Source: Desulforapulum autotrophicum
GTDB lineage: Bacteria > Desulfobacterota > Desulfobacteria > Desulfobacterales > Desulfolunaceae
NCBI GenBank assembly: GCA_020723285.1
Contig: DYJE01000011.1
Coordinates: 1 to 64,000, forward strand
Length of the DNA: 64,000 nucleotides
Reading direction: 5' to 3'
Position numbers and translations under genes: made by a program. Under the pieces are notes generated by a model, which saw only the letters and a list, made by a program, of their open reading frames with translations, did not search any database and had not been told where the DNA came from. Below, one piece after another: positions 45,766 through 46,770 of the stretch. Positions within the stretch are counted from its first letter, which is position 1. Every line of letters begins with the position of its first letter.

Positions 45766-46254
45766 TCAGTTGCCCATGAGCTTGAGTTTGAATTTGTGGT
45801 ATTCATCAAGGGTGATGAGGTTCTTATTTAATAGATCAACCAGTTCTGAAAGTTCTCGCAGCTGGTGAGCGTCAGAATCGATCAGGCGTCCACCTATATC
45901 GGGAAGACTTTGTTGAATGACATGGTCCGCTGGATTGGGACTTTCAAGTCTGAGAGAGGCCATGCCTCCGAACAGACTGACTTCTATGGTTCTTCCGCTG
46001 AATTCCGGTAGGGCGAGCATGTCACGTAACTGTTTACCTTCACTGACCATTTTTCTCTGGAGAAGATAAGCGGCCAGAAAGATAAGCAAAGAACCGATAA
46101 CAAGAATCCAGACCATGTACTGGACAATGGCACTGAAAAAAAGAATCAGGCAACCTACACCGGCAATCAGTGCTACATGAAGCACGAGAATCAGGTGTGC
46201 TGCAAAGATGCTTTTCAAGAGGCCGCTGGATTCTTTCTGGGAGTTTGATTTCAT
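45766..46254 (-). CDS. Small membrane protein with SHOCT-like C-terminus
   Basis: A 162-residue protein. Two membrane helices (about 18-48 and 52-68) are followed by a soluble domain that ends in a SHOCT-like helix pair (LRELSELVDLLNKNLITLDEYHKFKLKLM), a short motif found at the ends of many bacterial membrane proteins. No enzymatic motif is visible. The ATG at 46254 is used, with AAGG ten bases upstream; a TTG at 46263 lies just before it. It converges on galE. Confidence 0.75.
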   Translation of the reverse strand: MKSNSQKESSGLLKSIFAAHLILVLHVALIAGVGCLILFFSAIVQYMVWILVIGSLLIFLAAYLLQRKMVSEGKQLRDMLALPEFSGRTIEVSLFGGMASLRLESPNPADHVIQQSLPDIGGRLIDSDAHQLRELSELVDLLNKNLITLDEYHKFKLKLMGN

Positions 46255-46467
46255 GTCTGTCAAACCTTGATGATGATATAGGGTGATGCAAATTCTATTC
46301 TTAAACCGTCAATGAAACTATGAACATCCGGTTTTATGATACCTGAGTGTTTAAAAGATAAACATTAAAAAGTCAAGCACGTGAGCTTTTCATCCATAAA
46401 AGTGAGGTTCGTATCTGGGTCGTCTGATCATGAATCCGCTTTTTTTTATAGGCAAGCATCAAAGTTA

Positions 46468-46497
46468 TTGACCCGGACATCAGAGTTCATTTAAAAT
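46468..46497 (+). promoter_or_regulatory. Sigma-70 promoter of the small-RNA candidate
   Basis: TTGACC (46468-46473) and TAAAAT (46492-46497) are separated by 18 bases. The predicted start is near 46504, just before the first hairpin of the RNA candidate. Confidence 0.6.
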
Positions 46498-46503
46498 AAA
46501 AGC

Positions 46504-46600
46504 ATGGTGTGACCGATGATGGCAGTCATCCGTGTCCCCAACAAGCCGTTCAGCGAGGGTCTACTGCCATAGTTCGCCTCCGAACGGCTTGATTTTTCTT
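46504..46600 (+). ncRNA. Candidate structured small RNA with loop-loop contact
   Basis: About 97 bases between a good promoter and an intrinsic terminator, with no reading frame. Hairpin 1: GATGA (46515-46519) pairs with TCATC (46526-46530) around the loop TGGCAG. Hairpin 2: AAGCCGTTC (46543-46551) pairs with GAACGGCTT (46582-46590), extended by GCGA/TCGC, and TTTTT follows at 46593-46597. The hairpin 1 loop TGGCAG is the exact complement of CTGCCA (46564-46569) inside the hairpin 2 loop, so a kissing contact or pseudoknot is possible. CCTCC (46577-46581) near the stem could pair with ribosome-binding sites. I do not recognise a known RNA family. Confidence 0.6.
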
Positions 46601-46770
46601 ATAGGCACCTCCTGATACCTCTCGATTTAATCAAATCATAGATTGAAACAAACCAGCCTCGAATTTATTTTATTTTTTATTTTTTTTCAGACTCAAATGT
46701 AATAAGGTAGGTCCCGTTATTTTTTAATCGTTGTCAACTCATGAATCATTAGCATTTACAGATTTCTTTG

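Follow-up and report, generated by a model that had tools for sequence, protein, structure and literature searches.

A candidate small RNA family with two invariant complementary loops, narrowly distributed in the Desulfolunaceae

Upstream of a PBP1b-like gene of Desulforapulum autotrophicum, a structured RNA is predicted, which appears to represent a new and narrowly distributed small RNA family without a match in Rfam 15. The distinctive prediction for this family is a kissing contact between the loops of its two hairpins. By comparison of the loci, this view is based on a two-hairpin fold, similarly placed promoter-like hexamers, changing neighbours and two invariant complementary 6-base loops. 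Taken together, these suggest, with a probability of roughly 0.55, that the Desulfolunaceae possess a small RNA gene that stands by itself, the product of which would form a compact kissing-loop body and act in trans, probably bound by a protein. Here, "the window" is the whole stretch of 64,000 nucleotides that was analyzed (contig DYJE01000011.1, positions 1 to 64,000). The earlier note on this window had described the promoter, the hairpins and the loops, and this observation as a whole is confirmed; coordinates and letters were right.

The candidate locus

The candidate RNA has a length of about 95 bases and lies in the gap between a 165-aa reading frame on the reverse strand and the PBP1b-like gene (Table 1). 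The latter contains the Pfam domains Transgly, Transpeptidase, and UB2H. The 165-aa frame adjoining the gap (45766-46263, reverse strand) is without a Pfam family; we take its product to be membrane-bound, with an end that presumably resembles a SHOCT motif.

Table 1. Features of the candidate small RNA locus in window coordinates.
Feature	Position	Strand	Basis
Sigma-70-type promoter-like site, TTGACC-18-TAAAAT	46468..46497	+	Promoter scan; hexamers compared with relatives
Candidate small RNA	46504..46598	+	DNA search, alignment, covariation; both ends deduced from the promoter-like site and the putative terminator
Hairpin 1 (P1), bulged stem	46506..46539	+	5/12 pairs changed on both sides
Loop 1, TGGCAG	46520..46525	+	Invariant 7/7
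Hairpin 2	46543..46590	+	Made of P2, P3, P4; covariation and RNAalifold
P2	46543-46551/46582-46590	+	8/9 pairs never vary; one broken in L014 (G020)
P3	46555-46559/46575-46580	+	Part of hairpin 2
P4	46561-46563/46570-46572	+	Part of hairpin 2; three pairs in the window
Loop 2, CTGCCA	46564..46569	+	Invariant 7/7; reverse complement of loop 1
3' arm of P2 and U-rich tail, putative intrinsic terminator	46582..46599	+	Sequence, partly by eye

Relatives and distribution

A DNA search of 58 genomes, the window's own included, revealed strong matches (E 1.3e-4 or better) in six of the 57 others; if E values of up to 10 are allowed, every one of the 58 genomes shows some match, by chance. Five of the six belong to the same family (f1), namely MAG mb.113 (G001), Desulfoluna butyratoxydans (G003), D. 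limicola (G004), D. spongiiphila (G005) and the Desulfobacteraceae MAG GLD-1 (G006). Here, Desulfoluna is a member of the Desulfolunaceae within the Desulfobacterales. The RNA is present in five of the seven other genomes of the window's family, three of them being Desulfoluna species, and the one further member outside, MAG mb.70 (G020; E = 1.3e-4), represents another family of the same order (f14). Within f14 one of two genomes carries the RNA, and the other genome is 65% complete. The genome of the window itself contains a single copy (E 3.4e-75), with no other match below 0.38.

Over an 86-base core, 60-77 of the 86 bases are identical to the window (70-90%). In the flanks, 18-24 downstream bases out of 64 agree with the window, and upstream the figure is 0-16 out of 37, where 0 stands for a contig end. 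The core seems to have been kept while the flanks drifted apart, the promoter-like hexamers excepted.

A covariance model of 88 positions (R1) was built from the window and the six relatives. Within the family, R1 scores above 100 bits in six of the eight genomes. By this model the RNA is absent from G002 (a 17.5-bit match only) and G007 (no match), though both are grouped in one genus with Desulfoluna, and using a Desulfoluna locus as query only tRNA-like stretches were found in these two genomes. Searched against a draw of genomes from the order, R1 detects the RNA in 7 of 389, the window's own counted; a draw from the class yields the same 7 of 389, with the matches listed all from the window's own order, and a draw from the phylum yields the window's own genome as the only one of 395. 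Among the matches listed, these wider searches scored 11 candidates per genome, so that distant members may be missed.

A pattern made from the two arms of P2 (AAGCCGTTN{22,40}AACGGCTT) served to look for members with other loops. It matches 46 of the 389 genomes of the order, seven of which are the known members. The 30 loci that were read comprise 15 with a different hairpin of f35 genomes, three known members and 12 others. R1 with filters off identified no members with other loops in 27 sources (the 12 others, L147 and 14 further stretches); MAG mb.70, included as a control, scored 77 bits and all others at most 18.9 bits. Among 51 pattern matches on genome contigs, six are members by R1 with at least 77 bits, and for the rest R1 gave opposite-strand echoes on those six and four matches below 20 bits. 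An RNA of a mobile element was rejected as an identity, since the phage and plasmid collections contain no match to the RNA and 19 pattern matches on viral contigs gave no R1 match.

The different hairpin of the f35 genomes, AAGCCGTTACC.GCCCC..GGGGCTGGTAACGGCTT and variants thereof, recurs at the loci L147-L149, L152-L162, and L166, at about position 1501. It is preceded by a short reading frame and followed by an apparent gene start, and has the outer stem letters in common with the small RNA, the rest being different. This hairpin is probably a terminator or an attenuator.

Fold of the RNA and covariation

The 99-nt stretch has a folding energy of -36.4 kcal/mol (z = -3.28), and none of 200 shuffles is equally good. 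The opposite strand folds well too, with -33.7 (z = -2.59) and two of 200 shuffles as good.

For the test of the fold, an alignment (A2) of seven sequences was used, six of them distinct and five of the distinct ones from one family. The structure was drawn by hand, loop contact included, and fitted to this alignment. On A2, 97.6% of the cells are paired, nine pairs are changed on both sides and the covariation score amounts to 0.211, values that were each reached by none of 500 shuffles. One of the five measures, the number of further pair types, is ordinary (14 compared to 12.2; 55 of 500 shuffles reach it). Sliding the structure along A2 lowers the pairing to 37-47%, and RNAalifold recovers the same stems without a supplied structure. 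Furthermore, the + strand displays six G-U cells and one A-C cell, which favors it as the RNA strand.

Both predicted hairpins are supported by covariation. In P3-P4, four of eight pairs are changed on both sides; many of the both-side changes in the RNA depend on the lineage of MAG mb.70 alone. The P2 stem shows no covariation, with eight of nine pairs constant. As the P2 pairs hardly vary and the loops do not vary at all, covariation speaks neither for nor against P2 and the loop contact. The earlier note had proposed a comparison with relatives as a check on conserved pairing; with six other genomes this gave nine both-side changes, and conservation and covariation argue for the compact, two-hairpin non-coding RNA that the note had put at about 97 bases.

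Promoter-like site and 3' end

The promoter proposed earlier is present, and its -35 hexamer is the same in four of the six relatives. The corresponding hexamer of MAG mb.70 (L014) has four of six bases matching, and that of GLD-1 (L013) lies beyond the contig end. On its own the site is weak, because five promoter-like sites were observed in the 1.4-kb region in comparison to 2.5 (sd 1.8) in shuffled sequences. The -10 hexamer TAAAAT is found again in MAG mb.113 (L009) only; the hexamers TAGTGT of the Desulfoluna loci (L010-L012) and CATTAT of MAG mb.70 were picked by eye and are weak.

At the 3' end, the two-hairpin fold leads into a T-rich tract (46593-46599). The intrinsic terminator claimed earlier stands insofar as hairpin 2 contains the 9-bp stem P2 (AAGCCGTTC/GAACGGCTT), followed by TGATTTTTCTT. 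The terminator scanner, which detected three terminator-like sites where 1.2 are expected, reports just the inner 5-pair stem at this RNA (46572-46585), so the terminator made of P2 and the T tract is our own reading and is regarded as putative. The same form is present also in MAG mb.70 and weak in MAG mb.113. The three Desulfoluna loci and GLD-1 (L010-L013) have instead a separate GC-rich hairpin with a T run after the RNA.

Gene neighborhood

As a general account, the cis-regulatory function in front of the PBP1b-like gene that the earlier note had suggested was rejected. This gene is located downstream in two of the seven loci only, the window (G000; by Pfam) and MAG mb.113 (by similarity), and the five other relatives are without it and have other or convergent neighbors. 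At L082, L093, and L085 the gene toward which the RNA points is convergent, presumably Wzc-like, and turns its 3' end to the RNA. A tRNA-Leu is found divergently upstream in four of the six loci of relatives (L067, L082, L093, L097); at L078 and in the window no tRNA was found at the locus, and the upstream flank at L085 is cut off by the contig end after 23 bases. The changing neighbors suggest that the RNA resembles a gene of its own and not a leader.

The arrangement differs between Desulfoluna species: at L067 the tRNA-Leu and the small RNA, taken together, have the opposite orientation to the Wzc-like gene from that seen at L082 and L093.

A cis-acting attenuator or riboswitch, in which hairpin 2 would be the terminator and a contact with loop 1 would set the read-through into the next gene, is quite unlikely. 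It would be in line with the window, MAG mb.113 and MAG mb.70, where the next sizeable frame after the RNA shares its strand and resembles an envelope gene (in MAG mb.70 we take it to be LptF-like), and with the P2 stem running into the T tract in the window and MAG mb.70. However, members do not share the same downstream gene, the RNA points toward a convergent gene at three loci, and four loci possess a separate terminator-like hairpin after it. At L067 the next same-strand frame (261 aa), which overlaps a reverse-strand frame, is taken as probably spurious.

The guanidine-IV riboswitch offers a precedent for coupling loop-loop contact and termination, since a kissing loop has been proposed within its roughly 100 bases, which include a terminator (PMC11611296). 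There, the proposed contact interferes with the terminator stem, whereas the loop contact predicted here would be compatible with the P2 stem and leave it unbroken. Moreover, in contrast to guanidine-IV, no downstream gene is conserved across the loci of this RNA.

The complementary loops

In the window RNA, TGGCAG and CTGCCA are exact reverse complements, as had been noticed before, and both hexamers are unchanged in all seven sequences (six distinct), even in MAG mb.70, the core of which differs at 26 of 86 positions. Variation of the loops among the seven sequences is zero, so there are no compensating loop changes. A loop-loop contact would fit these invariant complementary loops, but covariation lends it no support.

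The earlier view that such loops are an unlikely coincidence depends on the definition. In chance tests devised after the feature had been seen, two fully complementary 6-base loops occurred in 7 of 5000 dinucleotide shuffles of 99 nt, but loops of 6-9 bases with complementary 6-mers occurred in 162 of 2000. If stems of at least four pairs are required, shuffling the RNA gives a complementary-loop pair in 52 of 5000 cases and shuffling the gap in 288 of 2000. Across the whole window, the + strand contains 87 such pairs, compared to a mean of 55.8 for 20 shuffles, and the - strand contains 42. The pair TGGCAG/CTGCCA is not among the 87, because the upper stem P4 has three pairs in the window. 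The single sequence alone is suggestive; the case is made by conservation in relatives, not by the coincidence of the loops. A chance fold, or a mere terminator without further function, is very improbable: complementary-loop hairpin pairs are indeed common under loose definitions, but conservation of the core, with covariation, reaches over different genera and to one further family, and does not extend to the flanks.

The pairs closing the loops are A-U or G-C for 16-23 (broken in MAG mb.70) and A-U or C-G for 62-69. A long-range helix through the loops, which would replace the hairpins, was mostly rejected, since the pairs 15-70, 24-61, and 25-60 form in none of the seven sequences and 23-62 in two; the possible helix-extending pairs 16-69 and 14-71 do form in six of seven. 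The local closing pairs and the mostly unkept longer helix would fit two hairpins kissing through six bases.

Parts of the loops are paired in the best structure of single-sequence folding, and freeing both loops would cost 2.1-4.4 kcal/mol relative to the best fold. The hexamer duplex is worth -8.4 kcal/mol, a figure that leaves out the penalty for kissing closure. Since the hairpin arms are unequal (12 and 17 pairs) and the linker has 3-5 bases, a contact inside one molecule would need a bend. The 6-bp kissing contact could form in one molecule or in a head-to-tail dimer and would turn the RNA into a compact body.

A further idea is a conformational switch. Here, the invariant loops would allow a stand-alone RNA to switch between a monomer kissed internally and a dimer joined head to tail, or the contact would be locked by a ligand or protein. 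Such an RNA, from bacteria in which no Hfq was detected, would be the trans-acting equivalent of riboswitches with kissing loops. We regard this version as unlikely.

Known RNA families and systems

The earlier remark that no known family was recognized agrees with the covariance-model search, in which the window has no match to Rfam 15 at the gathering cut-off. At the six loci of relatives, tRNA alone passes gathering. Permissive searches returned seven matches for the window locus, three for MAG mb.70 and 21 for D. limicola, all below gathering and with no shared family; the best of the sub-gathering matches is a miRNA family (E 0.001, 27 of 90 bits), located at the terminator hairpin that follows the RNA. 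Any Rfam 15 family was rejected as the identity, since none is found at gathering and no family is common to the members. The 6S RNA (RF00013) is likewise a conserved free-standing small RNA, but its model has 187 positions in contrast to 88 for this RNA, and it is a separate gene. It was rejected because all nine of nine genomes carry one 6S RNA elsewhere and none at this RNA. In searches of open-access papers for small RNAs of this group of bacteria, none of the titles and abstract openings listed gives a pointer to this RNA.

Plasmid antisense RNAs that kiss, such as RNA I/RNA II and CopA/CopT, are similar in that their loops are short, complementary and fit for a loop-loop contact. In those systems two RNAs made from opposite strands meet, whereas the RNA described here contains both loops itself, and the phage and plasmid collections are without a match.

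Guanidine-II (mini-ykkC) RNAs are included in Rfam and have short loops with an ACGR motif. They are cis-acting riboswitches, whereas this RNA would be free-standing and has 6-base loops. The likeness consists of two adjacent hairpins with a kissing contact, which is predicted in this RNA and described for guanidine-II, together with homo- and heterodimers in solution (PMC7544219).

Mode of action

Among 10 genomes, Hfq (PF17209) and ProQ (PF04352) were each detected in none, with 5 and 1 of 14 control genomes positive, respectively; only four of these genomes combine a completeness of 90% or more with a contamination of 5% or less. None of the 10 was found to encode either chaperone on which a small RNA of the Hfq- or ProQ-dependent type would rely.

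The motif CCTCC (46577-46581), suggested earlier to be free for pairing with ribosome-binding sites, forms the 3' side of stem P3 and is altered in two relatives, to CCTTC in GLD-1 and CTTCC in MAG mb.70. It was rejected as an anti-ribosome-site motif: paired and not conserved, it makes a conserved antisense action on ribosome sites unlikely. A second CACCTCC is present at 46606-46612, past the T tract.

The chief rival is a trans-acting antisense RNA, in which loop 1 or loop 2 would be the seed kissing a target mRNA and the other loop would mask the seed until the target is met. Recognition through loop-loop contacts is established for antisense RNAs controlling plasmid copy number, the RNA apparently has its own promoter, and its longest conserved unpaired stretches are the two invariant loops. 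The lack of detected Hfq and ProQ is no argument against this, because kissing antisense RNAs need not use them. However, two mutually complementary invariant loops exceed what a masked seed requires, and we consider the antisense reading possible, if doubtful.

The most economical and most likely reading is a compact RNA recognized by a protein. Besides the loops there is little conserved unpaired sequence for ordinary antisense pairing, which makes protein binding the most likely mode. The RNA would act in trans without Hfq or ProQ, and the shape set by the loops together with the nearly invariant P2 stem may be recognized by a protein, so that a regulator would be sequestered or guided. Both steps are less certain than the loop contact itself.

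Taken as a whole, this RNA would add a structured small RNA family from a group of bacteria in which neither Hfq nor ProQ was detected (10 genomes). Invariant complementary loops in what appears to be a free-standing RNA lead to a precise and cheap prediction, namely that the two loops would pair with each other.
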